A stretch of DNA of 64,000 bases, taken from Rhodotorula mucilaginosa. Taxonomy: Eukaryota; Basidiomycota; Microbotryomycetes; Sporidiobolales; Sporidiobolaceae. Under the pieces are notes generated by a model. That model worked only from the letters and a program-made list of their open reading frames with translations. It had not been told where the DNA came from and did not search any database. The stretch is from the NCBI GenBank assembly GCA_034406715.1, contig CP137873.1, positions 62,001 to 126,000 on the forward strand, given 5' to 3'. The position numbers were made by a program, and so were the translations under genes. Shown piece after piece: positions 8,585 to 59,668 of the stretch (within the stretch, counting starts at the first letter, position 1; each line of letters opens with the position of its first letter).

Positions 8585-8930
8585 AGGCAGCGCCAGAAAC
8601 CAGAGGTTTTCCGCATTCGTTGCGCGACGTGACAAGGATTGCAAACCTGGTCGGCCCTAACCTTGGTCATGAGCACTCCCTGGGCCTCCGGGCGAGTGTG
8701 CGATATGACAGGGCCATCCGGCACTGGTATACCCTACTCAGGAGGAAGGATAGTGTTTCTCTGTAACCGAGTTCTGATCTTTGTTCAGCCAAGACAAGAC
8801 AAAGTTGCCTTGGAAGGGACAGAGCATCCACAGTCCTCCATCGCCAGAAAGGCTATCCGTTGTTCCCTTTGTCTGACCGGTCACGCCGCGCCCATCTTGC
8901 TGTTCGACCAAGAGAGCATCCACAGGAGGC
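8560..8930 (+). repeat. Duplicated segment, copy 1 (decayed)
   Basis: Copy 1 matches 10490-10830. It contains the relict family exon and then a stretch reproducing the 3' end of the neighbouring minus-strand FN3-type gene. Shared words include CAGGAGGA, ATAGTGTTT, CTGTAACCGAG, CGCCGCGCCC and TCTTGCT in the same order. The duplicated host-gene tail no longer has an intact frame. Confidence 0.7.
8585..8775 (+). pseudogene. Relict last exon of the twin-microexon family
   Basis: A frame here reads RGFPHSLRDVTRIANLV and then LGHEHSLGLRASVRYDRAIRHW. It matches the last exon of the intact gene at 9345-10645 (TAFPGSSRSVSIHNLI, then TGHQQSLGLRASMRYGRAVRW). No upstream exons, microexons or promoter motif are found in front of it, and the frame runs past the equivalent stop to a later TAA. 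I read it as a broken copy. The homology continues beyond the coding part into the 3' flank. Confidence 0.7.
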
Positions 8931-9219
8931 CAAATCTGGATATATATGCAAGGCCACGTTGTTATGCCCGAGCATGTGCTTGGAATTTCGAGCTATGTAT
9001 TGTAAGCAGGAACTCTAGCGTAAACTGATGATTTCTTCGGTTCTGCGGCTCCGAGGAACGCCGAGCGCCACGCCACTGGCGCTCAATGTCGCGGGACTGG
9101 CCTGATGACCATAGCATAATGATTGAGCGTTCTGTATGAGATGTGACAATCGTACAACGAAGCACCTGGTTCACCGGTTGACCAATCACGCGCCTGCACG
9201 CGCACACTCCCCTCCCTCT
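8931..9219. other. Upstream region of the island 1 family gene, no gene seen
   Basis: The stretch has mixed composition and includes a TATATATG run near 8942. No supported coding exon is seen. Confidence 0.4.
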
Positions 9220-9234
9220 TCCGCGGACATCCCG
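9220..9234 (+). promoter_or_regulatory. Family promoter motif, copy upstream of island 1 gene
   Basis: TCCGCGGACATCCCG lies 110 bp before the start codon, in gene orientation. It keeps the CGG-N5-CCG core shared with all other family promoters. Confidence 0.7.
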
Positions 9235-9344
9235 AGACCGACTTGGCCAAACCCGCGTCCTTCTTGCTGGCAGTCCTCTCTCTTACGTCTCTGCCGTACC
9301 CTTACAATCTCCACGCAGTTTCGCAGATAACCCTCTGAGTATTG

Positions 9345-10645
9345 ATGCAGCCCACTCGCCCCACTGAGCCGGACCGTGCACTGGTCCACGTGCGAGATCA
9401 CTTCCTGCGTAATCATCAGCAGCAGCTCAAAGCCCTCGCAGAGCAATGGATCAAAAGCAACGTTCCAGACGCAGACGTCAGCCGGGAGACGACCGGTCTC
9501 GACCTTCGACTGCTCCTCAACGAGTTGCCAGTTGAAGCGCACCAGCATCATCTCGATCCGCAGTGGGGCGAGCTTCTCCAGCACTCCATGAGACACTTCG
9601 TTGCGCAGATAACGGAGGTCTTCTCTGACTGGTTTAATCAGGCCAAACCAGATCAGCGAACCTTGTTCTATCTGGTCTTGCAGGAGGTGCGGGATCATGT
9701 GAGGGCGTGCGAGTCTGCGCTGTCCAAGCTCCAGTTCTTTGTAAGTTGCCAACGCAGAGTTTGGCTCTCGAGTGTGAGCTGATCACTGATGCAACGAGAA
9801 ACCCAGACTATCGTGACTCCGCCTGGTTTCTGGACCCGTATGGTACTGCATTTAGCCCTCCGGAGCAAGTCCTACTGGCAAGCTGACTCTGACGTGTGCT
9901 CTACAGTGCCAATGGCGCCTTGCACTAACCGAACATGGGCGGAGAATAGCTGCCCTCAATGCCCCGGACGCGATTGGGCAAAACAGATGGGACCAGGCCT
10001 GGGACCAGGCCCCGGTCCACCTTGACTTTGCACATCCAGCGATCTACCCAGGTGTGCTGTTCCCCTGGGACAAGAACAAGGAAACACTTCTGAGAGCAGA
10101 GGGTATCGTGAAGTCCTCCCTACGGGCGATTCAAGCCAACGATCCTTTTAAGTCAATTCTCGAAGGTCGACTTGCGCAGCAGGTTCTGCTCCTCATTGGG
10201 CCCGGCGTAGAAAATTGGTACACCCAGAATACTGGTGCACGGGCCTGGTATACAGCTCTAATTCAGGCAGTGTCGGCAAAACTTGCTACAATCAATGAGC
10301 ACAATGGGCCAGTTTTTGCTATCCACTTCCTGGTGGGTACTGTGGCTGCCTCTTACACCTGACAAGTTGCGTAACTGATGTATACTTCCTATCCAGATGC
10401 GCTATACTGCAAACGGCATCGACTCGCACATGGTGAGTGGCGCAAAGCAAAGACCGCGCACGTTAAATCATTTCTTACCAGCTCTCAAGCATATCGTTCA
10501 GCATCACGCAGTGGCGGATGCCACAGCGTTCCCAGGATCATCAAGGAGTGTGTCCATACACAACCTGATCCAGCCCAGCACTGGCCACCAGCAATCCCTG
10601 GGCCTTCGCGCTAGCATGCGGTACGGCAGAGCCGTCCGGTGGTAG
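9345..10645 (+). CDS. Twin-microexon family protein G (unknown function), island 1
   Basis: Five exons with phase-0 introns (9345-9740, 9807-9842, 9907-10332, 10395-10430, 10490-10645) give 349 aa. Exons 2 and 4 are exactly 36 nt and encode TIVTPPGFWTRM and MRYTANGIDSHM. Exon 1 ends with FSDWFNQAKPDQ and then VLQEVRDHV. Exon 3 has VENWYTQNTGARAWYTALIQ and ends FAIHFL. Exon 5 has TAFPGSS and ends RYGRAVRW. The exon plan and key residues match the six other members, although overall similarity to them is low, making this the most divergent member and the only one on the plus strand. It has no signal peptide, no clear membrane segment and no recognised domain. An in-frame ATG one codon upstream (9342) is also possible. 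Confidence 0.72.
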
Positions 10646-10830
10646 CCAGGAGGAATAGTGTTTCCCTGTAACCGAGATATGGCCTTTGTCCACATGAGAC
10701 AAGTCAAAGTCGAGTTGAAAAGAGAGCATGCAGTGTCTTTCCCCGCCAGAGCAGGCTACTCAGTCTTCCCCCTCGTCGGACAACTGCGCCGCGCCCGTCT
10801 TGCTCTTTGACCGAGACAGCGCCTTGGCGC
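10490..10830 (+). repeat. Duplicated segment, copy 2 (parental copy)
   Basis: This segment spans the last exon of family gene G and the 3' end of the minus-strand FN3-type gene. It is the functional counterpart of the decayed copy at 8560-8930, so the duplication crossed the boundary between two convergent genes. Confidence 0.7.
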
Positions 10831-18041: not shown

Positions 18042-21000
18042 TTAGACATCTCCACGAGCGGCTCGGTCCGCCAGCATCGAGTAGCCGGGGAAGCCGACTT
18101 CTCCGAGGACCGCCTTGGCTGTGAGCTCAGCCTCGTCAACGTAGATGAGGAGGTTGGCAAGCGCCTCGACCGCAGATGCGTAGATCCCAAAATTCTCGTC
18201 GCGCAGGACGTTGAACGTGATCGGGAAGTCACCGAAATGGGCACCTTCGGCCTTGACGGCAGACGAGACATCGTCCGCTTCGTCTGCCGTCGCAACGACG
18301 TTGCCGAGTCGCTTCAAGCGGGCGTCGTGGTAGATGAGGCGGTCGAGGAGAGGGCCGGGCATCGCGGCGGGTAACGGTACCCCTTGGCGCAAAGCGAGGG
18401 AGATCTGCGAACGCAGGAGAGTGAGCAACGCAATGCCGCGGGAAGGGAGAACATACTCACCAGGCTGAAGCTAGTCGTCACGTCCGCAATCTGTTCCGCA
18501 TGTCGAGAGCGTCATTAGCGCCGCTCGTTTCTCAAGCTCCTCGCTGACAGATTTGACTTACGAGTGGCTGATTCAAGAAAGCGGTCTCGTGGACCAGCCG
18601 TTTCCGCCATCGCGGTTCGAGGCGCACAAGCGCGCGTCCGAGCTGAGACAGCGACTGCAACAAGCCGAGCTGATAGCGCAGCAGGCGCTTGTACTCGGCC
18701 ACCGGCCAGTCGCCCCGTAGCGATAGCTCAAAGACAGCTTGCTCGGCCGTGAGTTTGGCTCCGTTGAGCTTCCGACGAATCGCAATGATCCGGGCGCGGG
18801 CGGCACGTTGAGTGGCGAGACTCGTCGGCGCCACCTCGTCTGTCGATTTGCCGGCACCCGACGAGCGATCCTCCTTGGCGACAAAGTCGTCGTCAAGCTG
18901 CTGCTCTTCGATCCAAAGCGTGGTGATGGCGGCGTAGACGCGGCCGAGCTGTTCGAGGCACGTCGCGTGCGTACGGCGGACGAGGGTACGAGAGCTGTAG
19001 GCGGGCGGAAGAATCATAAAGACCAGACCGACTCCCTGCAAAGCGAGTTCTCGGTCAGGTCGTGTTCCGAAGAGTAATGAAGCGAAAGATTACGGACGGC
19101 GCCAATCATCACGAGCAGTCCGCGGCGCCAGGCCACATCGGTTCCTTGTCCAGGGTTCCCGACCCGCGGCAAATAGCCGTCGTTCCAGGAATAGCCGGCG
19201 ACGAGAAGGGCGGTGACGATGATCATGATCGGGAAGAGCGCCTTTTGCATTGACGAATGCACTCGCGCGGCGAGCAGCGGCAGCGAAAGGACAAAGATTG
19301 ACGCTCCGTTCCCGACTCGAGTGCCGCGACCGTTGGCGGCGCCAATATACCACTGAAAAGTGTTTATTTATGTGAGCGCAAGCGGGCAGGGATCATCTCA
19401 TTCCGGAACTTACCATCACTGCGGTCGGCGAAGACGATTCGCGAGCAGTCATCAGCATGCTGGACTGATTTTTGAGGAGAACGACGGCACTCACACATCC
19501 CATAAACCAGTCCGAGAGCTGAAAGGTTTAAGTGTTAGTGCTCCGAGCTAATCCACCGGACTGAAGCGAACACGGTTCGGACCTGTAGCGATCACACGCT
19601 CGATCGTGGCCAAGATCTGGTCTCCAGCGTAAGGCGCCATGAAAGTCTGCGCCGTAATCTGCGCCCAGACGAGCTGCGCGGCCGGAAAGCTGTCAGAGCT
19701 TTTCCAAAGGAGCTTCAACGCGCGGGAACGCACCTTTTCCGTGTACGCCAACCAAGCGGTCGACTTGAAGACTTGCGGAAGCCAAATGACAAGAGTCGCT
19801 GCGGCGTACTTGAGTGCGAAAATGACGTCGGGTGTCGCCCACCAGCGAATGAAGCCGTATCCGTAACGACCGAAACGCTGCAGGACATTCCGCGGCGGTC
19901 GCGCGTCCGGGCTGTAGTCTGAGAGTATCGACAGGACATAAGTAGAAATAAAGGCAAGCACATGTGGCAACCAAGAGAACCCACTTGGAGTCTTCATGAG
20001 CTCGTCAAAGGCGTTGCGGCCGTTTCGCCCCTCCGACTGCGACTTCGCCGGTGCCGCCCCGTTACCGGCTGCCTCTTGAGGCGACACGTCGTCTGCCTCG
20101 GGCTCTTCGACGGCGTCCGGATTTTCGCTGCCGTTGATGAGATCCGCGCCGCTCGCATGGTGACCTCGACGGGTCAAAAGGTGACCGATCCTGCGAAGTC
20201 CGGTGGGGAGCCAGAGTCGGCTCTTTCGGCGGCGATGACCGAGGTCAAGGAACTTGCGAGCGAGGTCGAGCACCGACTCCGAGTATGTGGTGACGTCGTC
20301 CGAAGCGGCGAGGACGGTGATCAGGGATTCGGGCGCGAAAAGTCGGATGGGGGCGTCGGGACCTGCGCGGCGGCGGCGTTCGGCGAGAGGCAGAGCTCGT
20401 CCTGTCTCCGGGTCGAAAAACTCCCGAAAGGGCTCGAGCAAACGTAGGCGATGTTCCTGTCGGTACGAGAGCAGAGCGGATTCGAGATGCTGGACCTTCT
20501 CATCGAGTTCGGCGAGGGACAGCTCTTCGGCATGACGAGCCTTGCTACTGAAGATCCAAGCCCACCGGGCGTCGTTCTGGGCGATGAGCCATTGCGACAA
20601 TGCCGCGAGCGCTGCGTCGTCGGCGTGACGGACTTCGGTCGACGCGTCGTTGAGCAGCGCCAGCAAAGTCGCGGAATCGTGCCCCTGCTGCCGCTCCGTC
20701 TCGCGAAGTTTGCGCCTGAGCTCTCGATTGGCCTTACTGGCGTACTCGCGCTCGGGTCCGGCTCCCGTCCGCTGACCTGGCGCCCGTTTCGCTTCGTCGC
20801 CGTCGGCGCTGGTGTGAGAGAGTCGGACCGAGATCGTCGACCAGAAACTCGCGAGCGAGATGCTGCGGGTGACGAGTTCCCGGATCGGTTCGACCAGCGA
20901 GCGATAGTCCTTGGCGCTGAGCTGGCCCATGGAGAGTTCCAGCTCGGAGAGAGGCAAGGCGATCATGAGGAGCTCGAGTCCGGACGAGATCGCCTCTTGC

Positions 21001-22230
21001 GTCGCGATCCACATCTCGCCCAAAGTGCTCCATCTGTGTGATTTGACGGCGGCAGCGTCGTCGTCGTCCGACGGCGGCGGGGTCGCGAGGATCTTGGCGT
21101 GCAAGTCGGCGCGCTGTCGAACCGGCGAGATGATGCGATCGACGAGGCCTTCGGTCAAGGCGTGGCTGACGGTCTGAGGAAAGATGATGATGGTACCGGC
21201 AATAGCGATCGCGAGGTAACAGGCGGTCGGCACCATGAACATCGTGCTCAAGGTGTAATTCTGGTTCGGGAAGAGCGGACCGTAGGCCGTCTGTAAGGGC
21301 AATCGTTTAGCTCGCATCGAGGCAATACTAAAGGGTGGACAATGAACGCACCATGACGTCGATAATGATGGATCCGAATAGGGATGTGACGAGGAGGATG
21401 GGAACTTTGGCTCGGAGCAAGCCCATACCGAAACTGCCGACGAAAAGGAAAACGCCAAAGACGAGCGACGATTTCCAGTCGAGGAAGGCGCCTTCGAACA
21501 AGCGCTTGGTATAGGCTTCTTCGGGGTTGGTGGCGGAGGAGATGCTGCCCTTGACCGTCATGACTTGACTTGCGGTCAGGACCAGGTCGCGCGCGCGCAA
21601 CGCAGCTGCCATCGCGGCGCAGCCCCAGGCCCAGCCGAGCGCCATGCCGAACGTGAGAGCGAAAGCGGCGATGATGAAGAGCTGCACCGGGAACATGGGC
21701 GGGATGAGGCAGGCGACGATGAGTCCGAAGAACGCAACTTTGCCGAGAACGCGGAGAGTCGTCTGGTCGACCACTGCAGAGTTTGCCCATCAGCTTGACC
21801 TCGAAGGAGACCGGCTTGAGACAACACTCACGCAAAACGACGTTGGCGAGGAACACGATCGCAATGCGCACGAACGTCTTGCGGTTCCGCCATCTGGACC
21901 GCGAGTTTGCTTCCAGCACGAACGCGGGCGGAGTATCGTACAGGGCAGAAGGAACCGCGAGAGGGAAAAGAGCTGCCGTCCAAGTGGGACCCGTCAGTGC
22001 GCGACCCTCAGAAGGCTCAGGTCAGACTGCTCACCGTTCAAGGGACCCTTGATCACGGTAGGCAGCTTCCCGCGGAGAGCGTTGCGGCGGCGCGGGTCGA
22101 ATATGCTTCTCTTGCTCTTCGGCTGCTGCTTCCGGGCGTCAACTGCGCCTGCTGCTGCCTCCGTGGTGTCGGACGATGTCGGGCTCAGGTGCTTCTCCCC
22201 ATCGGCTGCTGGGCTTGCAGACGGCCCCAT
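18042..22230 (-). CDS. ArAE/BRE4-type multi-pass membrane protein, copy 1
   Basis: The gene encodes a predicted endomembrane transporter of the fungal aromatic-acid-exporter-like family, with a 6TM N-terminal domain (PF10337 type) and a BRE4/DUF2421 C-terminal region (PF10334 type). Early exons are 22230-22035, 21972-21832 and 21773-21352, then one beginning at 21290; all join in frame. The first hydrophobic block contains VVDQTTLRVLGKVAFFGLIV and MFPVQLFIIAAFALTFG. A long charged middle region follows. A second membrane block contains WWATPDVIFALKYAAATLVI and QTFMAPYAGDQ, and later exons contain WYIGAANGRGT and AWRRGLLVMIGA. The C-terminus (LGEVGFPGYSMLADRAARGDV) matches copy 2. The substrate is unknown; Bre4 in yeast is linked to brefeldin A sensitivity. 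Confidence 0.85.
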
Positions 22231-22883: not shown

Positions 22884-25800
22884 CTAGACGTCTCCGTAGA
22901 AGTTGCGATCAGCGAGGAGCGAGTAACCAGGGAAGCTAATCTCGCCCAACAACGCCTTGGCCGCGAGCTCGAGCTCGTCCACGTCGAGGAGGATGTTTGA
23001 GAGAGCCTCGAGCGCCGCCGCGTAGACGCCGAAGCGCTCGTCGCACAGCGTCTCAAAGGTGAGTTGAAAGTCGCCGACCCGGGCGCCTTCCATCTTGGTC
23101 GCGTGCGCCTCGCTATCCTCGCTATCCGTATCGTCCGAGTTGCCGCGCATCAAGCTATTTGAGAAAGCTCGGAGGCGACCGTCGTGGTAGATCAGGCGGT
23201 CAAGTAGAGGTCCTGGCATGGCCGCCGGAAGAGAACAACCTTGCCGCAACGCGAGCGAGATCTGGCAAACGCGGTACTGACTCGAGTCAGTCCGGAAAGC
23301 CCCTGGAGAAAATTGAACACCAAGGAGACTCACCATGGTGAACGTGGTCGTCACGTCGGCCACCTGCACAGGCGTCAATGCGATATCAGCGGATCGCGCA
23401 CGATGAGGAGGCTAGACTTCTAGGACTTACGAGTGGCTGGTTCAGGAATGCAGTCTGGTGCACAAGCTGCTTGCGCCACTCGGGCTCGAGGCGGGTGAGC
23501 GCCAAGCCTAGCTGCGCTAGTGCTTGCAAGAGCGCGAGCTGCAGCCGCATCAGGCGGAAATATTCCGCTTGCGGCCAGTCGCCGCGGAAGGTGAGGTCGA
23601 ACGCCGCCTGGACGTTGGCGATCTTGGTCGAGTTGAGCTTGTTACGGATAGCATACATGCGAGCCTGCGCGGCTTTTTGCGAAGCTTGACCGAACGGCGC
23701 TGCCTCTGACGAGTCGTTCTTCGTCGTCGAGTCGAACGAGTCCACCTGCTTGGTGCGGAGGCGATCTTCATGGCGCTGCTCTTCGACCCAGAGCGTGGTA
23801 ATGGCAGCGTAGACGCGTCCGAGCTGTTCGAGGCATTTCGCATGCGAGCGCCGAACAAGTTTGCGCGTCGAGTTGGCAGGTGGCAGGATCATGAAGACGA
23901 GTCCGACGGCCTGAACAGTACATAGTCTCCGTCAGTAAACTTGATTTCAAGAGGGTACGGATAACAAGGTCGGAGGAAAGCACTCACCGCACCGATGATG
24001 ACGAGCAGACCTCGGCGCCATGCAACGTTGTACCCTACACCTGGATTACCCACCCTGGCGAGACGAGTGTCGATGATGCTGTAACCGACGACGAGTACCG
24101 TCGTGACCGTGATCATGATTGCTATCATCGCCGACGCGGGCGGAGCGTGGAGCCTCATCGCGAGGACTGGGAGGGACAGAACAAACAGCGAGGACCCGAC
24201 GCCCACGGAGGTCCCGCGTCCGTTTGCAGCTCCAATGTACCACTGTGTAGGGAAACAAATTAGCACCTCCAGAGAAGAGAATAACGTTGAGCAATCTGGC
24301 ATACCAAAACTGCAGGATGAAAGAACGAACGAGGTCAGCTCCGGCTTTCACCAACCTCCGGAGGAAGTGGACCGAACCTACGCATGCCATACACGAGACC
24401 GATCGCTGTTCCGAAGATGCGCTGCAAAGTCGAGAACACTTGATCGCCCGCGTAGGGTGCCATGAAAGTCTGGGCAGTGATCTGAGCCCAGAGTAGCTAT
24501 GGCGCGAAGAGACTTCAGCAAACAGCACGCGAAGCAGGATACGACCCTCTGAGAAGATACAAGGAAGGCTGAAAGGTCGGCGGCACCTTTTCCGAATACA
24601 TCAGGAACGCCGTCGTCCGGAAGACTTGCGGGAGCCACAGCACGATCGAAGCGGCGGCGTACTTGAGCGCAAAGATGACGTCGGGGGTGGTCCACCAATT
24701 CATAAACTTGTAGCCGATAAGGCCGACGCGTTGCAAGGCGTTTCGAGGCGCTTTGGCGTCCGGATCGCGATCTGCCCACCAGGAAATCCATCAACGACGA
24801 GAAACTCGGGGGCAGCATTAGGACCACACCGCCTCGACTTACTCTGTGTCTTCATGAGCTTGTCGAAGGGGTTCTCGGGCTTCTTGTCCTTCTTCTTCTT
24901 GCTCTTCTTTCCCGACAACGACGACGACGATTTTTCCTTCTCGCCCGCGGCGGTTCGATCCCGCCGACTCGACAACGTGGCCTCGTCAGAAGAGGCGTCG
25001 TCATCATCGACAGGCTCTTCGTCGACTCGGTCGGGATCCTCTCCGCCGGCGGCAAAATCGACGCCAGAAGTCGTCCCGCGATGGTGACCGGCGAGGAGGT
25101 GCCCGATCTTGCGGAGTCCGGTCGGGAACCAGAGCTTACTCCTGCGACGTTGCTGCGCCAAGTTGAGGAGCCTTCGCGTGAACTTGAGTACAGACTGCGA
25201 GTACAAGACGAGCGTGTCGGCAGCCGAGAGGACGGTGAAGAGCGACCCGGGCGCAAACAAGCGTTCGCGCGCGCTGTAGCCTCCCCGCTTCCGGCGTTCC
25301 GTTTGAGAGAGGAGAACGCCCGTCTCGGGATCGAAAAAGTCGCGGAACGGCTCGACGATCTGGAGACGGTGGCGCGAGCGGAAAGCCTCGATCTCGACCT
25401 CGAGAGAGTCGACGGCTCGTTCGAGATCGGCGAGGCGCGCTTCTTCGTCCGTGCGCGCCTTTTTGCTGTAGATCCAGGCCCAGCGCGCATTGTTCTGCGC
25501 GATGAGCCAGTCCATTGCGGAGGCGATGGCCGTGTCGTCGGCGCGTCGCATGTCGCTTGAGACTTCGGCAAAGAGCTTCAGCAAGGTCGTAAAGTCGTGT
25601 TGGTTGTGAACTTCGGCTTCGTGGAGCCTGTTGCGCATGTTGAGGTGATGGCCTTGCCCGCGTCGCGACTCTGCCTGTCGTTTCGCGTGATGGGGCGAAT
25701 CGGCGGCGAGGTCTGCTGCATCTTCGCGGGGTGAAGAAGCTGGGTCGTTCTCGTCCCCCTCCTCCTCTTGATGCCGACGCACGCGCGACCACACCGTCGA

Positions 25801-38921: not shown

Positions 38922-40429
38922 CTACCACCGTTGCGCAGTCTTTCCGTACCGAACCGCCATGCGGAGACCGAGTGCATGCTTGCCGGATGCAGCGTGATAT
39001 TGCGCCACAGCTGAAGGCATCATGAGAGGGAGGTCAAACCGAGACCAGAATTTCGGAACCAACTTTGTACGGTCCCCGCGGTAGTGCGCAGTTCCCGGGA
39101 ACGGTTTGTACCAGCTCAAATCTCCCTCATGTAAGTGGGGCAGCTCTGACTGGATTGTCTTGTGCTGCGCAACCTGCAGGGCATTCACCTGTTTCAGCTT
39201 CATAGATACACTTGCAGGGGATGAGGAAATGTCTGCTCTGCCCACCATACAGTGGTCAACATATGCAGGCGTCCACAACATCTGTTGTTTAAGCAATGTA
39301 AAATACTGGATCAGATCAGTAGCAGCATGGGGAAGGAAACGATCCACGTACTGCATAGTTGAGCGCAATGAAATAGCCGTCGTGTTGACCGATCTCGCGA
39401 CACCGCGAGGAAATGTGGCGAAGCAGTGTGCAGAAATGCATCTGCTGCAGCCGGGGGAGGGACATGTACCACTTTTCCACCGGCTCGCTCCGGAGCCAGA
39501 CAAGACTCATCTGGGCATTCCAGACCTCTGATTGGGTGTCGCCCTTTGCCTTGTCGATGTGGAAAAGGATTCCTGAGACGGCAAGATTGATCCGCTGCAG
39601 CACAGAGTGATCGGTCCCAGCTGAATTGCTCCACTCCAGGGCTTTCTGCAGTGGAGCACCGCTGTCAATGAATGTCATTGGCGGGGCATAGCGCGTCCAG
39701 GGGAGCAACGCAGCCTGTTCCCAAGACTTCGCCCAGAGGGTTTTAGGGCACGGGACCTCTGTGTGATAGCGGCGCTGACATCCAGATTAGAGTATGAGTG
39801 CGAGGCCGGTAGTCGGTGAAAAGCTGGACTGGAACACACCATCCTTTCGAGCATGGCAGGTGGTGTACGTGCAAGCTGAGGCAGCAGGATTAAGTCCGCC
39901 TTGCACACAAAGTCATCCACCCACAGGAAACAAGGGGACCCACAAATATTGCGCAGATACAGAGCCTTGTGCCTGACCTGATTATATCCCTTTCTTCCTC
40001 TGACATTTCTTCTGGCCAACATGTGCTGTATGCTTCATCCTTAAGCTGGGTGACGTCCTGAACGAGCTCATCAAGCACTTGCGAGTAGATTTTGGCTACC
40101 ATTGCGGGTGAGCATGTGCTTGTGAATGTACAGGAGCGCATCCAGCTTGAGTCCGTTGAGTGAAAGACTGCTTTGGTCCTAGCAGTCCAATCGTGGAAGG
40201 CTGAGAAAATTGGATTGGCTCCTCCGCACACTGCTTGAGGCAGGCTTGTCAGCAGCTTGCCAAGCCGAATTTCCACTGTATGGATGTGAACATCAGCGTT
40301 GCGCCCATCCTCAGGGTGAGGCGGGAAGATTGGTCCAGCGAGTGGACGCTGGCGATACTCTTGTGTCTGCCAGACAACTTCGTCGCAGATTTTAGGGTGG
40401 TGGTCCAGGTTCAGGATCAGCAGCGTCAT
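38922..40429 (-). CDS. Twin-microexon family protein F (unknown function), island 2
   Basis: Five exons with phase-0 introns (40429-39944, 39875-39840, 39774-39352, 39281-39246, about 39173-38922) give about 410 aa. Exon 1 begins MTLLILNLDHHPKICDEVV and has QTQEYRQRPL. Microexon 2 encodes LARTPPAMLERM. Exon 3 has KSWEQAALLPWTRYAPP, VEKWYMSLPRLQQMHFCTLL and ends DGYFIALNYA. Microexon 4 encodes MLWTPAYVDHCM. The last exon has WYKPFPGT and ends RMAVRYGKTAQRW. A second acceptor would lengthen the last exon by 15 nt. It is the first of four same-strand paralogues between ILV3 and ARP6. It has no signal peptide or known domain. The model rests on agreement of exon phase and motif order with six paralogues. 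Confidence 0.74.
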
Positions 40430-40511: not shown

Positions 40512-40526
40512 CGGCTTGTCCGCGGA
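40512..40526 (-). promoter_or_regulatory. Family promoter motif upstream of gene F
   Basis: In gene sense the site reads TCCGCGGACAAGCCG, 82 bp before the start codon. Confidence 0.75.
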
Positions 40527-40965: not shown

Positions 40966-42482
40966 TTACCACCGCTGCTCTGCCCCACAGTAAGGAATCG
41001 CCACACTGCCTCCTGGGGTAGGCTCGCCATGTGCAGCCTGCAGTCGTGCCACTTCCGAAGGCATCTTGTTATAGGTATAAAAGCGTCCCCAGATTGTCGG
41101 GTCCAGTTGTGTCCAGTCGTGACAGTACAAGCTGCCAGGGAAAGGTGGAAGGCATGGCGCCCTACCATGTGGGTATTTGAGAGTAGATGTATGCCTGTCA
41201 TGTTGTACATACTGCAAAGTTCAACAGTGTGTGTGTCAGCTTGTCCAAGATGAGACCTGAAGTGACTTTGTGGAACACTTTATCAACCCACCATCCACCT
41301 TTGAACAGTGTCCGGTGTCCAAGACATCTACTTGAGCTGAATTAGTACTAAGTACTGTGAAGGACCAGTGTGAATGGACTGATCAGACTCACTGCATACT
41401 TGAGTGCAATAAAGCAGCCGTTGTCTCTGCCAATTAGGCGGCATTGCAGCGAGATGTGGTAAAGCAGTGTGCAGAAAATCTGGTGCTCGAGCTCTGTAAG
41501 AGACCAGTACCAGACTTCTACCGGCTTGCTTGCCAGCCACTGAAGACTGCTTTGGGCTTTTTGAGCTATGTTGTCATCTCTGGCGTATTTCCAGCGAGAC
41601 AGGATCCCGCGTACTGCTCTGTCAAGTATTGAGAGGACAGAACGGGTGGCACCGCCCCAGGTGCTCCATACCAAGGCAGTGCGCAGCTGAGTATCTCTAG
41701 GAGGGTATATGATTGAGGAGCATGTCCAAGGGAGCAAGGCAGGCTGCTCCCAAGAGTGTTCCCAAAGCGCTGTAGGGCATGGAATGCCACGTGGGCAGAA
41801 GCGGTGCTGACCATACAGGTGCAGGTGTAAGTGCAGGAGACTTGTGATCCCATATAACTTCAACGTACCATCCTCTCAAGCATGGCGCTTGGTGTACGCG
41901 CAAGCTGGCAGGAAAAATTTAGCCCTTCTGGCAGTATCACAGAGGGCCTTCATCTGAGCACGGTAGAGGACTCACAAACACTGCTGCTGCATGCAATGCC
42001 ATGCTTGCCTTGAAGGCATGCCTTTTGCCCATTTTCATCCATTTCTGGTGGAATCCCTTCTCGCCTTCATTCCGGAGCCACTTGATGTCCGCAACAAGCT
42101 CCTCAAGCACGCAGCAGTATACCGGTGCGGCCATTGTGCTTGACTGCATCCAGCCTGGATGATCTCCCTCCGGGGAGACTGTCTCTGTGAGAAAGACCAC
42201 TGCATTTCTTCCAAACCAGTCGGCGGCGGCGGCCGAAAGCATCTCATCTGCTCGCCACATCCCTGCGCGAAAACATAGGTCTTTGACCAGCTGCTTAAGC
42301 TCATCAAGCGCATACTGAATGCGCCTGTTTGGGTTGAAGTTCTCGCCAGGCGGAGGCACGGGGACGGGCGTGGTGAGCGGCCGGTTGCGGTACTCTTGTG
42401 TTTCCCGGACAACCTCGTCGCATTGCTGAGGGTCCTTGTCAAGGCGGAGAGCAACCAAGTGCAGAGTGCTGCTGTTCTCCAT
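40966..42482 (-). CDS. Twin-microexon family protein E (unknown function), island 2
   Basis: Exons 42482-41976, 41904-41869, 41806-41393, 41327-41292 and 41211-40966 are all multiples of 3 and give 412 aa. Exon 1 carries DPQQCDEVVRETQEYRNRPL and later CVLEELVADIKWL. Microexon 2 encodes LARTPSAMLERM. Exon 3 has HSWEQPALLPWT, VEVWYWSLTELEHQIFCTLL and ends FIALKYA. Microexon 4 encodes MSWTPDTVQRWM. The last exon has CLPPFPGS and ends CGAEQRW. It is closest to genes F, D and C. A Pro-rich linker (PVPVPPPGENF) follows the N-terminal motif. An in-frame ATG seven codons upstream (42503) is an alternative start. Confidence 0.75.
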
Positions 42483-42571: not shown

Positions 42572-42585
42572 CGGCTTGTCCGCGG
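42572..42585 (-). promoter_or_regulatory. Family promoter motif upstream of gene E
   Basis: In gene sense the site reads CCGCGGACAAGCCG, 89 bp before the chosen start. The base before the core differs from most copies. Confidence 0.72.
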
Positions 42586-42908: not shown

Positions 42909-42914
42909 CCGCGC

Positions 42915-42950
42915 ACGCGACGCGGACCGTTCACGCGACGCGGACCGTTC
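42915..42950. repeat. 18-bp tandem repeat, two units
   Basis: The unit ACGCGACGCGGACCGTTC occurs twice with no spacer (42915-42932 and 42933-42950), directly beside the orphan motif-like site. Confidence 0.85.
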
Positions 42951-43528: not shown

Positions 43529-45001
43529 TCAGATTGGTGGCTCCAGTGCCCCATGGTGAGGAACTCTGTCGGAACCCGGAAATGGTCGGAGCGGGATTCG
43601 GACCCGGTCATGCAGGTCATGTCGGTTCTCTTCCCGTTCCTGTCCACAGAGCAGGGACAGTCAGAGGATGAGCATCAATACGGCCAATATGGGGAAGGGG
43701 ACTGAGAGATCTGGACCAAAGCCCAAAATGACAGACAGAAAGCTTGCTCAGACTTGCTCACCATCCAGGCCTGGACATGGCCAGGTGTCCACAGTGACTA
43801 GACAGATCTTGGGGTGAGCTTTTTGATCAGAATTTTTGTGGAGCAGAAGGAGTCACGCACCGCATAGTTGAGCGCAATGAAGCACCCGTCTTCCCAACTG
43901 ACGCAACCGCATTCCAAAGCAATGTGTCGGACAAGCATGCAGAATGACTTTTGCTGCATGTGAGTGAGTTGTTCATACCAATCTGTCACGTGTTGAGCCC
44001 TGAGCCAGGCAAAACACTTCCAGGCCTCCGTCGGAAGAGCATTGACCGCCCAGCCTGCGTCCGACACAGCATCTCGGTGAAGTTGGATTCTCCAGATGGC
44101 TGCCGAGATCCAATTGTGAATTGATTCAACCCCTTCCCCTGCATACCACGGTAGAGCGGCGTGAGGAAGGGCATATGGCTGGGGAAAGTTGCGCGGCGGT
44201 GCGTAGCGCACCCAATGGTGCAAAGCGGGTTGCTCCCATGAGCAGTGCCAAAGCGGCTCAGGGCACGGGACATAGCCTGTGCGGCGCTGTCATGCACATA
44301 AAGCAGTCAAGATTGCAGGTGTCAGCGAAAACAATCCCACACGGGCAAAGATTCAAACAAAAGGAATGGTGCACCATGCGTTCAAGCATTGCGGGTGGGG
44401 TGCGAGCAAGCTGTGAGATGGTAGGGACTTCTCTGAGTCAGTAGTTCCAGTAAACATTGAGGTGCATAGAAAAACACACAAAGATGACTTTGACCTGCAA
44501 CATCAATCTGCTCAATGCGGCATGCCTCGTATGCTCATTCGGGATCCCTCGCCAATTTGCGTGCAGCCGATGAATACCACTCTTGAGGTCGTGAATGAGC
44601 TCATCCATCACGCATTTGTACAGGTCTGCTGATCTTGTCTCTCGCTGTAACCAGCGAGGGCCGGTCGGAGAACAAAACACGGCCCGGTTCCGTTGTGCCC
44701 AGTCGACGGCCGCCTTCATCATGCCATTGAGATCCAAGGTCTCGGGACGTTGGAGTGCCAACCGGGGCAGTAACAGCAAGTGTTGGTAGACCTCCTGAAA
44801 GTCTTGATGGAGTGGGGAAAGGACCCCATCAAGGTATGGCTCGACAGGCGCGGGCTGGGGCGGCTGGACGGGTACGAGCGGGAGCGGCTCGACAGGTGCG
44901 AGTGGAAGAAGGTCACGACGCCGATAATCTTGCGTTTCGCGGATGACTGCTTCGCACAGGTGCGGCTCTCGGTTCCAATCGAGCCTGACCAGGTTCGCCA
45001 T
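43529..45001 (-). CDS. Twin-microexon family protein D (unknown function), island 2, short C-terminus
   Basis: Exons 45001-44480, 44410-44375, 44286-43861, 43797-43762 and 43639-43529 give 376 aa with phase-0 introns. Exon 1 begins MANLVRLDWNREPHLCEAVI and has RETQDYRRRDLLPL, followed by a Pro/Val-rich repeat. Microexon 2 encodes LARTPPAMLERM. Exon 3 has CSWEQPALHHWVRYAPP, VTDWYEQLTHMQQKSFCMLV and ends DGCFIALNYA. Microexon 4 encodes SLWTPGHVQAWM. The last exon has IPLRPFPGSD but ends soon after (LEPPI), so the C-terminus is much shorter than in E or F. Whether this is functional or early decay is unclear. An in-frame ATG lies 11 codons upstream (45034). Confidence 0.7.
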
Positions 45002-45072
45002 TAGTGGGTCGCGCAAGTGTTCTTTGAGAAGCACGAAAGAGCAGATCGTCGAACGTCGACGAAGTACGGCAT

Positions 45073-45087
45073 TCGGCTTGTCCGCGG
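45073..45087 (-). promoter_or_regulatory. Family promoter motif upstream of gene D, proximal copy
   Basis: In gene sense the site reads TCCGCGGACAAGCCG, 71 bp before the chosen start. Confidence 0.75.
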
Positions 45088-45182
45088 ATGAGCGGTCGCC
45101 CGAGCTTGGGTCAACCTGAGGATTCGCAGCGGACTAGACCGTCTTGGAAGCCATCGGGAGCTAGGCAAGCGCACATCGATCT

Positions 45183-45197
45183 CGGCATGTCCGCGGA
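45183..45197 (-). promoter_or_regulatory. Family promoter motif upstream of gene D, distal copy
   Basis: In gene sense the site reads TCCGCGGACATGCCG, with one change outside the CGG-N5-CCG core. It lies 110 bp from the proximal copy in the same orientation. Confidence 0.65.
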
Positions 45198-46107
45198 GCA
45201 CGCGCAAGCGTTTGAAAGTGCATCGCCCCCTTCATAGCGCACTCAGTCTTGGCCCAAAAGCTTGGCCCGAAGAGCCAGTTGCGATCAGACCGATTCGCGA
45301 GCACGGTGGACGGCGGGACGGGATTTGAAACATGCAGCAAACTCGGATCCGAGTTTCAAAACTCTGCACAGCCTATGCACAGCCTTGCAAGCTGACCGCC
45401 AAGCCGGACCATTCCATCTCAAGTCGGAGGAATTGGCGGTCCATGCAATGGGCGATTGAAGAAAGAGATGAGCGCGCCGGCGAGCAGCAAAAGCGGGCCA
45501 GTGAAATGCAAAGATACATGACTGGCTCTACTCGGATCTGAGAACAAAGATCAAGCTCTACAGGTCATTTAAAGATAGAGCCCATTGCGTGCCAGAGGGA
45601 GGCTCTATGCACCCAATCGCCACTCAGGCCACGGAGAAAGCTGCCTGAACGCAGACTCAAAGCTGTCATCCTGCCGCGGAAAATGTGTGACACCCGGGAA
45701 ATCTCACAGTCACGGTGGCGTACGCCTCTGTAGGACCCATGAAAGAAGTTTGGCGCTTTCGTGAAAATCAGGACTAGAGGTATGGAGAGCTCGCGCTCAA
45801 CTTGAAACCGCCACTTGATAACTACAAGTGCGAGTGTATCCGTGAAGACTCCCTCCAGCTTCGGTTTTCATGTAGGAAAATGCAGCAAGCATCATCAGCA
45901 TAGGAAAACATGATCTTGTTTGCTGGAAACTCTGCTTTGCTTCGCTTGAGCCTTACTCTTTGTCCTTTTTTGTTAGCGAGAATTAATATCACTGAACAGT
46001 CATCACTACATAATATGGAACTCAATGCCAGCACCGCTAGGACCCAGATCCTACCTATAAATTGTGCTGGACAATGTGCACTGACCGACCGCTGCCGCCA
46101 CTGAAAA
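45198..46107. other. Spacer between family genes D and C
   Basis: No gene is supported. A perfect 18-bp palindrome lies at 45339-45356 (listed separately). Confidence 0.45.
45339..45356. repeat. Perfect 18-bp palindrome
   Basis: AAACTCGGATCCGAGTTT is its own reverse complement. It contains CGG-N2-CCG. Confidence 0.8.
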
Positions 46108-47655
46108 TCACCGCTGCCCCCTTGCTGGCGGGATCACTGGGGTTCTCGATCTCAAAGCCAGTGCCACTGGAGGCACGACATGTTTGCTCCGCACAATTTC
46201 AACAGAACTCCTGTTTCTTGGCTGCAATGCTGCGCGGACAGCAGCAAGTGACGTGCCGGGAAACGGGGGATGCGGAACATTGTGCCCGTGCCGATGGAGC
46301 TGTTGTCAGAAGCAAGCAAACCAGCGGAACACGTCAACATGGTGAAAAAGCTTCGGTTAAAGTCTGCGAGAAGTTGTTGGGTTTAAAGGGAAATCAGTCT
46401 GAAATTACCTTCCACAATGTGACCAATTCAGGCGTCCAGAGCAGCTGCAAGCAAGGCATAACCCAAAAAGGGTTAGTTTTGACAATGTAACAGACAGTGA
46501 AAGAGCAAGGGGTACACTTACTGCATAGTTGAGCGTGATAAAAAAGCCATCTTCCCGACTGATCCGGCCGCACTCGGACACAATGTGCCGTAGCAGCATG
46601 CAGAATGACCCTTGTGGGGCCAACGTGTGGGACAAATACCACCTTTCAGCATCCTCCCTCGGAAGCCAGTCAAAGCTTGACTTGGCCTGCTTTGAATGCG
46701 CCGCAAGCTCCCAGGGCGGGCCCACAACCACATCCAGGCGGCCCTGTATCTTGACTGTCATATCTTCAATCAAGTCAAGAACAGCAACTGGTCCAACTGC
46801 CCAAGGTAGGGCCTGCTGTGCGTGGGCATCCGGGGCAGGAAAGGTACACGGCGGGGCGTACCGCGTCCAGGGAAGGAGGGCGGGTTGCTCCCACGCTTGG
46901 TGCCAAAGCGCCTTGGGACAGGGGATGTGACATGTGCGACGCTGTTAAGTCAAGAGGGAGGGGTCAATCCTGCACAAATCTGTAAGGAACATGTGCTGTG
47001 TCTGAGGCTGTGAAGTTGGAGCAAGACGGCCGCACCATCCTCTCGAGCAAAGCAGTCGGTGTGCGTGCGAACTGCGAGATGGCCTTGACGCTGTCAGCTT
47101 AGCAGTTTTCGCTAAGAAAGATGCATTGAATCAGGAAGCACACACAAAGATCACTGTGGCCTGCATCAAGACCCCATCCAAAGCTTCCTCCTTTGCAGAG
47201 ACACCCTCAATCCTTGACCAGTTTGCGCACAGGCCGTCGATACCGCATTGAAGGTCTTGAATGAGCTCGTTGATGACGCATTCGTACATCTGCGCTGTTG
47301 TCGTGCCCGGCTGTAGCCAGCAAGGCTCTGTGTGAGAGCGGAACACGGCCAGGTTTCGCTGACACCAGTCCTCGGCCGCCGTTTCCACCGAGTCGAGTTC
47401 CGGGTATTCCGGCTCCCGGAGTGCAAGCCTAGGCAAAGACATCAGCTTCTTGTAGACCTCCTTGAAGTCTTGATCAAGTCGCCGCATCATGTCAACGGGG
47501 TTTCGCCTAGGGCGTGCGTGTCCGCGCGGCGCGAGCGGTGCCGCCGGCGCGGGGAGCGGAAGACGGTCACGACGCCGATACGCCTGCGTTTCGAGAATGA
47601 CTGCTTCGCACAGGTGCGGCTCTTTGTGCCAGTCAAGCGTCCATAAATGCGGCAT
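46108..47655 (-). CDS. Twin-microexon family protein C (unknown function), island 2
   Basis: Exons 47655-47146, 47071-47036, 46941-46522, 46444-46409 and 46299-46108 are all multiples of 3 and give 397 aa. Exon 1 begins MPHLWTLDWHKEPHLCEAVI and has LETQAYRRRDRLPL. Microexon 2 encodes FARTPTALLERM. Exon 3 has QAWEQPALLPWTRYAPP, DAERWYLSHTLAPQGSFCML and ends DGFFITLNYA. Microexon 4 encodes LLWTPELVTLWK; the final Met found elsewhere is replaced by Lys. The last exon has HPPFPGTS and a basic tail ending PPARGQR. It is most similar to D in the N-terminal half. Confidence 0.74.
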
Positions 47656-47735: not shown

Positions 47736-47750
47736 CGGCTTGTCCGCGGA
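47736..47750 (-). promoter_or_regulatory. Family promoter motif upstream of gene C
   Basis: In gene sense the site reads TCCGCGGACAAGCCG, 80 bp before the start codon. Confidence 0.75.
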
Positions 47751-56316: not shown

Positions 56317-57745
56317 TCACCATGTATACTGGTGACGCCCAAGTACATGAAAGGCTGGTGCGGGGTTGTGGGCAACAACAAGAGGAGGTAGGATGAACGC
56401 ATGAAATTCCGGATGGGCTTGCATGAACTGGTGAGGGTTGTGGTCGGGTGAAGACCCAGGGAATGGGGTCTTGATGATTTCCGGTTCAGTGTATTCATGC
56501 TTCTGATCATGCAAGGTGTTGCAGATCAGGGTCAGCTGTTGGTGTTAAGTGCTGAGGAATGTGTTCACTTAGAAAGACAAGCTACCATCCAGTGCTGCAC
56601 ACCGCGCGGACTCCATGCAAGCTGTGGCAGTCAATGCAGGGACAAAGTTCAGCTGCCAAAGCTGCCAATATCGGAGGGAAACAGCATGTGACCAACCAAG
56701 TAGGAAAGCGTGATCAAACCTCCGGATTTTTTGAGTCCCGCTCGGAGAAACTCATACACACTAACAAGCCACGCTGAAAACGCTTTTTTGGTGGCAAAAG
56801 GTGCTTGAGTGTACCAGTCTTGGACAACTCTGCTTGTGATCCAGGCAACAGCGCCATTGACTATTTGCGGCGTTTCACTGCAGCCGGGGCCGGGGTAGTT
56901 GTATCTGCGGACTTCTTTGCTCAGGCGCTGCTTGATGATGTGGGCCAGGGCTGCAATGCAACCAGTGATGGTCCATTCAGCAGCCGGGCCGTGGTGCTGC
57001 CAATGATCATCTTGCGACCAGCGTAACAACATGATATTGTTTGGGACTGAACAGTGCAGTCGAGGCGCAAAGCGCATCCATGTGCGGAGTTTTGGCTGAT
57101 CCCACAGACCCTCTCGCAAAGACTGTGGTGCTTTGGGGCAAGGAGCACAGCTTTGCTGCGCAGCACAACAGGGAATGTCTTTCAGTTCTGAGGCCTGGCA
57201 AGGGGTGAGTGACGCACCATTCGCATGTACATCACCATGGGTGTCCTCGAAAGCTGCCAGCCCAAGACTTTGGTCAGCAGTGCCAGTTCCGTAGCCCCGA
57301 AGGAGGACAAGCTCACCAAAAGTGAGACATAGTGATCTTCTGTGCCAGTTTCCTCCAGGTGTTGCGGCTTTGACCCATGCAGGTCTCCCAGAAGCTCATC
57401 AAGTGCGGCCACGTAAGCTGGGTCTGCACACTGACGCAGCGGCTGCAGCGCCTCGTGACGAGCTTGCCAATCTTGCCAAGCTCGAGAGATCGGCACCGGC
57501 GCTGACGAACCAGTAAACTGGCGTTTAAGGTGTTCGATTTGAAGAGAGATACAGTCCATGGCATGGTTGCAATGGTGTTGCACCCATTCCCCTGTTATCA
57601 GGTCCCCAACCGAGTCCTTGAGCGGACAAAGCGGTTCCCGATACAGATACGCACCTGTCTCGTGGATGACGAGCTGACACAGTTCCTGCTCGCCTTCCTT
57701 GGCCGGATCGAGGGTTACGAGCTGCGCCGTGATGCGAGGATCCAT
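56317..57745 (-). CDS. Twin-microexon family protein A (unknown function), island 3
   Basis: Exons 57745-57317, 57253-57218, 57155-56697, 56621-56586 and 56502-56317 are all multiples of 3 and give 381 aa. Exon 1 begins MDPRITAQLVTLDPAKEG and has LCQLVIHETGAYLYREPL, then WQDWQARHEAL and YVAALDELLGDLHG. Microexon 2 encodes LSRTPMVMYMRM. Exon 3 has EGLWDQPKLRTWMRFAP, VVQDWYTQAPFATKKAFSAW and ends GGLITLSYL. Microexon 4 encodes LAWSPRGVQHWM. The last exon has IIKTPFPGSSPDHNP and HPEFHAF. It forms a closely related pair with gene B. The residue pattern around the second microexon is the same as in island 2, although identity is low. Confidence 0.75.
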
Positions 57746-57834
57746 AGAGGCAGTGGGTACTGTTTTGTGACTGGAACAAGAAAGAAAGCCAAAGAAGAAA
57801 GCTGAGAGCGCTGAGAAGTCCGTGGGTGATACAC

Positions 57835-57849
57835 CGGCTTGTCCGCGGA
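57835..57849 (-). promoter_or_regulatory. Family promoter motif upstream of gene A
   Basis: In gene sense the site reads TCCGCGGACAAGCCG, 89 bp before the start codon. Confidence 0.75.
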
Positions 57850-58241
57850 CCGAGCGTTCGGCAAGGCTCGAGCGTTCCAAACTACGATTCGCCAAGGCGA
57901 GGAGTCCAGATAAGCTGCGGGCACCGGAACTTATTCAGGGTCGCACCAGGCAAGGAGGCAAACGGGCAGGTCCAGTCAGCCGGGAAGGGCGGCAACACAG
58001 TGACGGCGAACGGAAACACGTGTTGGAGACTCGAGAGCGAACAGCATGCTTTTCAGCCCGGTGGAGCCAAACTCCGAGGCAGAGTGTAGGCAAAATTGAG
58101 GCGAGGCAAGTGGCGCTGGGCTCCAAGCCTGAGGACAAGTCGCGCTCGGCTCCAAGTGAAAATAAAACGGGTTTCAAGCGAAAATAAAGTCTCTCAAACT
58201 CGCTTGATGTTGCCTTGATCAGGTGCAGCAAACCTTGCCCA
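57850..58241. other. Spacer between family genes A and B
   Basis: No gene is seen. Repeated words CAAGTGAAAATAAA and CAAGCGAAAATAAA occur at about 58154 and 58175, just past the stop of gene B, and may be 3'-end signals. Confidence 0.4.
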
Positions 58242-59668
58242 TCACTGTGCAGCTCCATGATATACAAAGACGTGCACACCAGCAGCATCTGGGTGGCGCG
58301 CGACCGGCTCGACAACGGGAGTCGGAGTCGGAAGGAATGCGTGGAATTCGGGATAAGCTCGGATCCGGTCCCCGTGGTGCTCTAGGTCGGCGGGAGATCC
58401 TGGGAACGGGATTGCGTCGGCGGCGGTCTCGCCACATGAGTGACGCTAAAAGTGAGAGTGGCAAATCAGCGTAAGCCCTTGAACCACTGCGCCGGAGTGT
58501 GCCTGCGGTTGAAAAAAGAGGAGGGACCCATACCATCCATTGCTGCACCATTGTTGGACTCCAAGCAAGCTAGATAAGCCATTACAAGTCAGCTTACAAT
58601 CTTGTGGAAGACAAGAGATTGCAAGTTCGGACAGTGAGAGAGACATACCAAGTGGGACAGCGTGATCAAACCTCCCACTTTGTCGAGCCTGGCCATTGTG
58701 GAGTCGTGCAAGTCTACAACGCACGAGGAAAAAACTTTCTGTGCATTGAAAGGAATTGTGTGATACCAGTCTTGGACTGGCGTGCTTGTGAGCCAGGCAG
58801 TGCCCGACTTGAGTTCCTCGATGACGAGGAAGTGGTCCGCGGCCCCGCGGACCTCGAGTCCGAGGCGGGTTTGGATGCAGAGGTCCAAGTTCTTAATATA
58901 CGTGGTGATGCTGACACACTCACCTTGCTGGGAACTTGTCCACAGCAACGGTGCGTCAAGTCCCCGTGTTGGAAACTCCACCGGGGGAGTAAACCGCAGC
59001 CACTTGCGAAGCTTGGGCTGACTCCATGTGTGGTTACGCAAGGGCATTGGTGCGTCTGGGTAAGGGTCATAGGTTTGCTGTGCACTGCATGTCATTCCAA
59101 AAAGGTCCAGGAATGAAGAGGCCTTGAGCCAACGCACCATCCGCATGTACATGGCTGTCGGCGTCCTTGAAAGCTGGCGGTCCACAAGTGGGGGTCAGTT
59201 TGTTGCTTTACAAGAGGGTCAATGGGAAGAGGTATGTACCAAAATAGCAACGTAGAGAGCCGCTCGTTCATGGACCCGTCGACAGGCCGGCCTAACCAGA
59301 TCACTGAGGAGTTCGTCAAGCACTGCGAAGTAAGCTGGGTGCCCGACAGTGTGATGGTCACGCAGCGCCGCATGCCGCGCTGTCCAATCCTTGCAGGCTT
59401 GTTCAATTGTCACGGGACTTGTCGAGCCGGCATAGCGATCCCAGGGGCCATTGAACTCCCTCGTGAGAAATTCGATAACAATGCCGCCGTACTTGAGCAC
59501 CTTTTCATGGGTCATCGGATTCCCGTACGCGTCCCAGAACCGGGGGAGTGGCTGCCGACGCAAGTATGCGTGTGTCTCTTCGACGACGAGCTTGCACAGG
59601 TCGTGCTGGCTCGGGTCGGCGGGATCCAGAGTCACAAGCTGCGGCTGCTCGGGAATATGCGTGTTCAT
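58242..59668 (-). CDS. Twin-microexon family protein B (unknown function), island 3
   Basis: Exons 59668-59240, 59173-59138, 59077-58649, 58570-58535 and 58445-58242 give 377 aa. Exon 1 has the same length (429 nt) as in gene A. Exon 1 has MNTHIPEQPQLVTLDPADP, LCKLVVEETHAYLRRQPLP, CKDWTARHAALRDH and FAVLDELLSDLVRP. Microexon 2 encodes LSRTPTAMYMRM. Exon 3 has HTWSQPKLRKWLRFTPP, VQDWYHTIPFNAQKVFSSCV and ends GGLITLSHL. Microexon 4 encodes LAWSPTMVQQWM. The last exon has AIPFPGSPADLEHHG and YPEFHAFLPTPTPVV. A clear tandem duplicate of gene A, with conserved start, microexons and last-exon core. Confidence 0.76.

Follow-up and report, generated by a model that had tools for sequence, protein, structure and literature searches.

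The window, i.e., the whole 64-kb stretch of DNA analyzed here, contained seven genes (A to G) that we tentatively interpret, at close to an even chance, as members of a real, fast-diverging subtelomeric orphan multigene family of five-exon genes with two 36-nt microexons, inducible via a common upstream element; protein properties, regulation and role are what we infer within this reading. In the proposed scheme, a zinc-cluster activator would turn on each gene through the upstream element, where its binding is predicted. Both microexons would always be included, and in each half of the protein the helical portion would be followed by a short Thr-Pro (TP) segment that a microexon encodes. The proteins, presumably soluble, intracellular and mostly helical, would act in an inducible response to stress, xenobiotics or nonself and may diversify as copies are duplicated and lost close to the end of the chromosome.

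Seven genes share five exons, including two 36-nt microexons

Script-built models gave each gene five exons and four GT-AG introns, the latter being 60-122 nt long and all in phase 0. On the minus strand, gene F (38922..40429; 410 aa, C-terminus RYGKTAQRW) consisted of exons 40429-39944, 39875-39840 (36 nt, LARTPPAMLERM), 39774-39352, 39281-39246 (36 nt, MLWTPAYVDHCM) and 39173-38922. Gene E (40966..42482; 412 aa) consisted of exons 42482-41976, 41904-41869 (LARTPSAMLERM), 41806-41393, 41327-41292 (MSWTPDTVQRWM) and 41211-40966. They were followed by gene D (43529..45001; 376 aa) with exons 45001-44480, 44410-44375 (LARTPPAMLERM), 44286-43861, 43797-43762 (SLWTPGHVQAWM) and a short last exon, 43639-43529, and by gene C (46108..47655; 397 aa) with exons 47655-47146, 47071-47036 (FARTPTALLERM), 46941-46522, 46444-46409 (LLWTPELVTLWK) and 46299-46108. 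The other two minus-strand genes were A (56317..57745; 381 aa), with exons 57745-57317, 57253-57218 (LSRTPMVMYMRM), 57155-56697, 56621-56586 (LAWSPRGVQHWM) and 56502-56317, and B (58242..59668; 377 aa), with exons 59668-59240, 59173-59138 (LSRTPTAMYMRM), 59077-58649, 58569-58534 (LAWSPTMVQQWM) and 58445-58242. Gene G alone was on the plus strand (9345..10645; 345 aa, C-terminus RYGRAVRW), with exons 9345-9740, 9807-9842 (TIVTPPGFWTRM), 9907-10332, 10397-10432 (MRYTANGIDSHM) and 10502-10645.

For each gap, all open phase-0 internal exons of 9-120 nt were enumerated in each of the seven genes. A single gene allowed 2-18 candidate lengths, and 36 nt was the only length common to all seven, in both places. 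The models and the enumeration thus upheld the structure proposed in an earlier note, namely seven genes in which all four introns are phase 0 and exons 2 and 4 each measure 36 nt. The least certain microexon was exon 4 of G, which fell outside the top four candidates by leave-one-out profile and was assigned because the nearest paralog, C10:179k, has ERYTPDLIDKHM. That every exon length is a multiple of three was also true, but it follows from the phase-0 introns and is no separate fact. The novelty claimed for the twin-microexon architecture was overstated, because descent from one gene predicts a common architecture and because genes of basidiomycetous yeasts are reported to have, as a putatively common feature, microexons and adjoining GC-AG introns (PMC9142197). 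In these yeasts, microexons by themselves are nothing unusual and not new.

Family copies are concentrated near telomeres

Judged by a PAL exon, the genome is probably that of Rhodotorula or of a yeast close to it. Approximately 15 family loci were found in the genome, 14 of them no more than 180 kb from the start of contig C10 and one on C2 (80.9k), after a C9 match at E 2.4 was left out of the count. The C10 loci lay at 86-139 (relic), 8k, 70.6k (relic), 71.9k, 101-109k (four), 118-121k (two), 130k, 170k, 171-177k (split) and 179k. Both contigs start with CCCTAA-type (telomere) repeats, and the relic at 86-139 adjoins those of C10. This concentration near telomeres is as expected of a lineage-limited subtelomeric multigene family. 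The tandem arrays F-E-D-C and A-B, together with the relics, one copy split by an insertion having identical 317-bp ends, and one copy (C10:170k) in which neither exon 1 nor exon 2 was found in roughly 600 bases read upstream, fit birth-and-death evolution. Within the window, positions 8520..8727 (plus strand, limits set by eye) held a relic, the final exon of a further G-like copy, reading LGLRASVRYDRAIRHW; its similarity to the gene G 3' flank extended to 8917 (8664-8917 versus 10582-10820, 71%). The additional loci, the telomere link, this relic and the common upstream element go beyond the earlier note.

Among copies having the part in question, exon 2 was 36 nt in C10:8k, C10:130k, C2:80k, C10:177k and C10:179k, and exon 4 in C10:8k, C10:130k, C2:80k, C10:170k, C10:171k and C10:179k, making 12/12 and 13/13 with the window's seven. 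Exon 2 of C10:130k and exon 4 of C10:8k, C2:80k and C10:170k were identified by eye, outside the search pattern.

Protein divergence, selection and relatives outside the assembly

The family proteins were homologous, 19-43% identical to F, so the likeness of the seven genes is not due to chance. Their alignment held 19 invariant columns, including TP, the WY pair and FPG. The fixed-order set of shared anchors described earlier proved looser than stated; PFPG was exact in 6/7 proteins and FIALNYA-like strings were present in four (C-F), but ETQxYR and W[ED]QPAL were exact only in C, D and E, and RYAPP only in C, D and F. Gene G had few of the anchor strings.

Since all internal exons are in phase 0, each could be skipped in frame, and the microexons might instead be optional cassettes. 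As with the microexon of Trichoderma Xlr2, they could then be kept or left out, and as many as four isoforms would arise that differ in the presence of the TP segments. In favour of this possibility, the 36-nt exons are symmetric, exon 2 is followed by a GC donor in C10:130k and C10:177k, and a fungal microexon switch is on record (PMC11121469). However, exon 2 showed the top DNA identity among nine segments in four of seven paralog pairs (exon 4 in none) and its peptide was well conserved, which fits constant inclusion. Furthermore, donors after microexons were not clearly weaker, with +5 G in 10/14 compared to 13/14 after long exons by hand count. We therefore consider optional inclusion unlikely.

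dN/dS was calculated by NG86 over exons 1-4 for 7 of the 21 possible pairs. Five pairs gave values below 0.5 (EF 0.46, CD 0.26, AB 0.37, CF 0.27 and DF 0.37; range 0.26-0.46), whereas DE and CE were saturated. These values, the open spliced frames and upstream element in 7/7 genes, and the pairing of external relatives with single paralogs argue against the view that the genes are decaying or non-functional subtelomeric duplicates with no role. Such decay would account for the relics at 8520-8727 and next to the telomere, the split copy, the copy lacking a visible 5' part, and the overlap of exon and intron DNA identities between paralogs. It would also suit the differing C-termini of A-D: F, G, C10:8k and C10:130k end in RYG/RYYG...W, D stops early, and A, B and C end otherwise. 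On balance, decay without a role seems rather improbable.

A protein set without taxonomy yielded 13 external relatives, in line with the predicted spread beyond this assembly. In the exon-3 tree, F, E, A and C10:179k each paired with external rows with starred support, and G grouped with P0008 (85/88, not starred). Over exon 3, P0015 was 80% identical to E and P0005 63% to A. The family is so far known from this yeast and from environmental or public sequences.

A common element lies upstream of every gene

TCCGCGGACAAGCCG or a variant was found upstream of all seven genes. Its core, TCCGCGGA, was exact before six of them and differed by one base in E. The genome held 112 exact sites compared to 0 for the reversed pattern; in the window, a search for the 14-mer that tolerated one mismatch found seven sites, all before A-F, where 0.05 were expected. 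On the minus strand, the element lay at 40512..40526 for F (TCCGCGGACAAGCCG, the core ending 89 bp before the ATG), 42572..42585 for E (CCGCGGACAAGCCG, the first base of the 15-mer differing), 45074..45087 for D (with a second, one-mismatch site at 45183-45196), 47736..47749 for C, 57835..57848 for A and 59757..59770 for B (one mismatch, CCGCGGACAACCCG). For G, it lay at 9221..9234 on the plus strand, with two mismatches (CCGCGGACATCCCG). The element is probably a zinc-cluster-type site common to the family. In a wider reading, the TCCGCGGACAAGCCG 15-bp element would mark a dedicated regulon whose genes, several tandem orphan families among them, are mostly uncharacterised. Within this regulon, the twin-microexon family would be the member linked to a telomere and would form a conflict or self/nonself system inside the cell, with paralogs long kept distinct and microexons giving in-frame isoforms. 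We give this wider reading only about one chance in ten.

Mobile-element, known-family and targeting searches

The genes could also originate in a mobile element, or be part of one, and have been spread by it, as their dispersed and tandem copies, the relics and their low GC (0.534-0.560 versus 0.61 in the remainder of the window) might suggest. However, none of the seven proteins matched a Pfam transposase or reverse transcriptase model under E 0.05, as claimed earlier. In three islands of the window, nearly all direct repeats tracked exons, the upstream element or the G 3' flank; the three short inverted pairs found there did not flank a gene, and no terminal repeats were seen. Moreover, external rows paired with single paralogs, unlike the expectation from a recent burst, and one copy was itself split by the 317-bp-ended insertion. 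A mobile origin is thus very unlikely.

No Pfam or NCBIfam model matched under E 0.05 and comparison with PDB sequences gave no convincing match, in agreement with the claim of no known family. Thus, the family looks new, matching nothing described in the libraries searched (Pfam, NCBIfam and PDB). Structure prediction, a check suggested in the earlier note, was run on exon 3 and returned an all-helical model (pLDDT 68.3, pTM 0.63). A hydropathy scan, which is not a dedicated predictor, found no membrane-like or hydrophobic signal-like stretch (top 19-residue mean 1.32), bearing out at that level the claim of no signal peptide. The proteins are probably soluble and mostly helical. Secreted or surface families are a common kind among subtelomeric fungal families, and the subtelomeric, tandem, fast-diverging genes resemble them, but with no membrane-like stretch and a top 10-residue mean of just 1.2 among the first 34 residues, an adhesin- or effector-like family is the least probable alternative.

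Significance and comparison with known systems

With the orphan multigene family, the red-yeast genome gains a protein family without known relatives. Gene finders may mis-model such genes because of the 36-nt exons, the common 15-mer makes their regulation directly testable, and paralogs kept apart next to a telomere offer a handle on the persistence of subtelomeric families.

Subtelomeric multigene families of fungi form near-telomere clusters with birth and decay, fast divergence and relics. The present family shares all of these, but differs from such families in general in having no signal-like or membrane-like stretch and no known domain. The bglA genes of Hamamotoa singularis and Rhodotorula minuta have 3 and 10 microexons among 19 and 22 exons, introns averaging 59-60 nt and a GC-AG intron adjoining microexons, and encode a known glycosidase (PMC9142197). 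Very short exons, short introns and a GC-AG intron next to a microexon recur here, in contrast to bglA in a family with two microexons of one fixed length and no known domain. Xlr2 of Trichoderma virens likewise has a microexon affecting the protein; this is a switch in a single transcription factor gene with regulated inclusion established by experiment (PMC11121469), whereas ours is a multigene family known from sequence. Finally, TCCGCGGA is identical to the palindromic core of the pleiotropic drug resistance element, the Pdr1/Pdr3 site of Saccharomyces, as given in PMC11111045; here, probably in another phylum, it forms a candidate site, predicted from the DNA, in which an added CAAGCCG makes the core a 15-mer.

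Gene models and the fixed 36-nt exons

The genome comprised 20.35 Mb in 19 contigs, of which the window corresponded to C10:62001-126000. At E <1e-50, a PAL exon had 1y2m and 1t6j as its sole matches among solved PAL structures; both are from Rhodotorula toruloides, which probably places the genome in or close to Rhodotorula. Seven genes (A-G) had been proposed in the earlier note to share five exons, four phase-0 introns and 36-nt exons 2 and 4, and scripted models rebuilt this architecture in all seven. Exons 1 to 5 measured 396-522, 36, 414-459, 36 and 111-252 nt; introns of 60-122 nt were GT-AG and phase 0 throughout, and the products had 345-412 residues. In the alignment, the proteins were 19-43% identical to F, and 19 columns were invariant. 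All open phase-0 internal exons of 9-120 nt were enumerated per gap. The sole length common to the seven genes was 36 nt at both positions, while individual genes permitted others; the second microexon of G was the least secure, being outscored by rival candidates with a profile built from the other six genes. Exon 2 ended with ATG ahead of the donor in 12 of 12 copies. T at −2 of the donor is not splice consensus, and this ending therefore indicated protein-level constraint. Two external proteins read through an intron in frame: P0004 contained the microexon-type peptide MLWTPEHVDHGM, and in P0005 the end of such a peptide alone was visible (MAMYMRM).

Copies and genomic location

Loci were searched with exon 3 of C, B, G and the copy at C10:8k, plus one external query. 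On C10, family loci were found at 8k, 71.9k (G), 101k, 103k, 106k and 108.5k (F, E, D, C), 118.7k (A), 120.6k (B), 130k, 170k, 171.7-177k and 179k; C2 had one at 80.9k. A C9 match with E 2.4 was excluded from the count. The copies beyond the window encoded the microexon peptides LAYTPAAILERM and MTLRPNDVQHWL (C10:8k), LARTPTALLQQM (GC donor) and KHWTPLLIDGFM (C10:130k), LSRTPTAMCIRM and LAWHPNDVQYWM (C2:80k), LSRTPTAMFMRM (GC donor) and LAWSPDAVQQWM (the split copy, C10:171-177k), and FVLTPQAVWAQM and ERYTPDLIDKHM (C10:179k). The C10:170k copy gave LAWQPDAVQWWM; its exons 1 and 2 were not seen within the upstream stretch read. At window 8520-8727, the last exon of another G-like gene was present as a relic.

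Both C10 and C2 started with CCCTAA-type repeats. Right behind those of C10, at C10:86-139, the 18-residue reading HIASETCKIGARDGCYIA scored 43.5 against the family exon-3 end, compared to 20.8 for the highest-scoring unrelated position anywhere in the 64-kb window. The C10:171-177k copy (L061, L072) was interrupted by an insertion whose 317-bp terminal repeats are identical, indicating that the insertion is probably recent. By its motifs, a frame inside it resembles a Ty1/copia RNase H, but this frame had no Pfam match.

Within the window, GC content was 0.534-0.560 in the family genes (9345-10645, 38922-47655 and 56317-59668) and 0.61 in the rest. Most DNA between the family genes was likewise GC-poor (0.495-0.558), with the exception of 59669-60050 (0.61). 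A dihydroxy-acid dehydratase gene (Pfam ILVD_EDD_N) adjoined F. Another tandem duplicate occupied 18064-21952 and 22906-27001; its two units matched piecewise over 4 kb at ~65% identity, and a frame in each unit carried ArAE_2_N (Pfam; putative ER transporter).

Relatives, protein properties and selection

Three search rounds against 5.8 billion proteins matched 2 of 3411 candidates (E ≤0.01), 13 of 940 (E ≤1) and 9 of 2743 (E ≤10). These were 15 distinct proteins, 13 of them external after removal of P0003 and P0006, which carry no source and resemble the window's own proteins. Two were named 'hypothetical protein', and none had a precomputed Pfam domain. The seven proteins gave nothing at E <0.05 against Pfam and NCBIfam and no convincing match in PDB profile searches, in agreement with the earlier note, which could assign them to no known family.

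The exon-3 tree contained 11 own and 9 external rows. P0003, P0006, P0002 (an exon-1 piece), P0014 (short), and P0007 and P0009 (near copies, judged by eye) were left out. Starred support was obtained for F with P0001 and P0004, E with P0015, A with P0005, and C10:179k with P0010 and P0012; G grouped with P0008 at 85/88. A long-branch warning applied to C10:130k and C2:80k. The best exon-3 identities of paired rows were 63-85%. The likeliest reading of these sequences is that the paralogs predate the split from the external sources; some external rows, however, may come from this species or be further paralogs.

Exon 3 alone, predicted from an alignment of 17 rows, gave an all-helical model (pLDDT 68.3, pTM 0.63; residues 41-70 and 91-130 better), for which no fold was prominent. 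Charge was balanced, and Trp amounted to 2.7-4.6%. Hydropathy revealed no signal-like or membrane-like stretch.

Selection was analyzed by NG86 over exons 1-4 in 7 of the 21 gene pairs. The dN/dS values were 0.46 (EF), 0.26 (CD), 0.37 (AB), 0.27 (CF) and 0.37 (DF), all rough because dS exceeded 1; DE and CE were saturated. Rough as they are, these values speak for real genes. However, in gap-optimised alignments DNA identity was 0.53-0.83 for exons, 0.56-0.72 for introns and 0.54-0.57 for shuffled sequences; exons were not clearly higher, and this overlap counts against the selection argument. Exon 2 was the most similar segment in four of the seven pairs.

Upstream element

The element CGGCTTGTCCGCGG (sense orientation CCGCGGACAAGCCG) preceded all seven genes, exactly or as a variant. 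Its core TCCGCGGA was exact in six genes and ended 79-117 bp before the ATG; D had a second core 188 bp before the ATG, and E a variant at the first core base. Allowing up to one mismatch, the window contained seven sites, all ahead of A-F (two at D), against 0.05 expected. The G site had two mismatches, at which level 9 sites were found against 1.48 expected, with one extra at 42895 between E and D. Genome-wide, there were 112 exact sites versus 0 for the reversed pattern, and 213 versus 2 with up to one mismatch. Conservation beyond the 15-mer was slight (44 distinct exact sites compared), and no strand preference toward open frames was seen over 40 sites. Elsewhere, sites preceded unrelated frames and other small tandem families, for example in four regions on C3.

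A second tandem family (L049, C3:1469000-1476000, and L048) lay in four regions behind the identical 15-bp element. Regions read had an LDFG peptide close to the start, and the segments scanned gave no family-wide Pfam match. At C4:518500-526000 (L051), two near-identical units ~4.7 kb apart each carried the element, and a third exact site followed 4.7 kb beyond, at C4:530015.

Proposed mechanism and known systems

The chain we propose starts from what was demonstrated: the genes as open frames after splicing, their splice architecture and conservation, where they lie, and the element. A zinc-cluster factor would drive transcription of the family genes, and both microexons would be constantly included. 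The protein product would be soluble and helical, each half ending in a Thr-Pro segment, and it might act in an inducible intracellular response. We rate the whole chain just short of an even call, and doubt over the external sources slightly reduced our confidence in it; taken alone, the role in an inducible response is unlikely.

No published description of the protein family was found among the titles, abstract openings and selected passages searched. The family belongs among the subtelomeric multigene families. According to PMC11111045, the core TCCGCGGA serves budding yeast as its Pdr1/Pdr3 element; by analogy, the factor acting here may be of the Pdr1/Pdr3 type. Microexons are described in PMC9142197 as a trait of basidiomycetous yeast genes, with which we place the microexons of this family.
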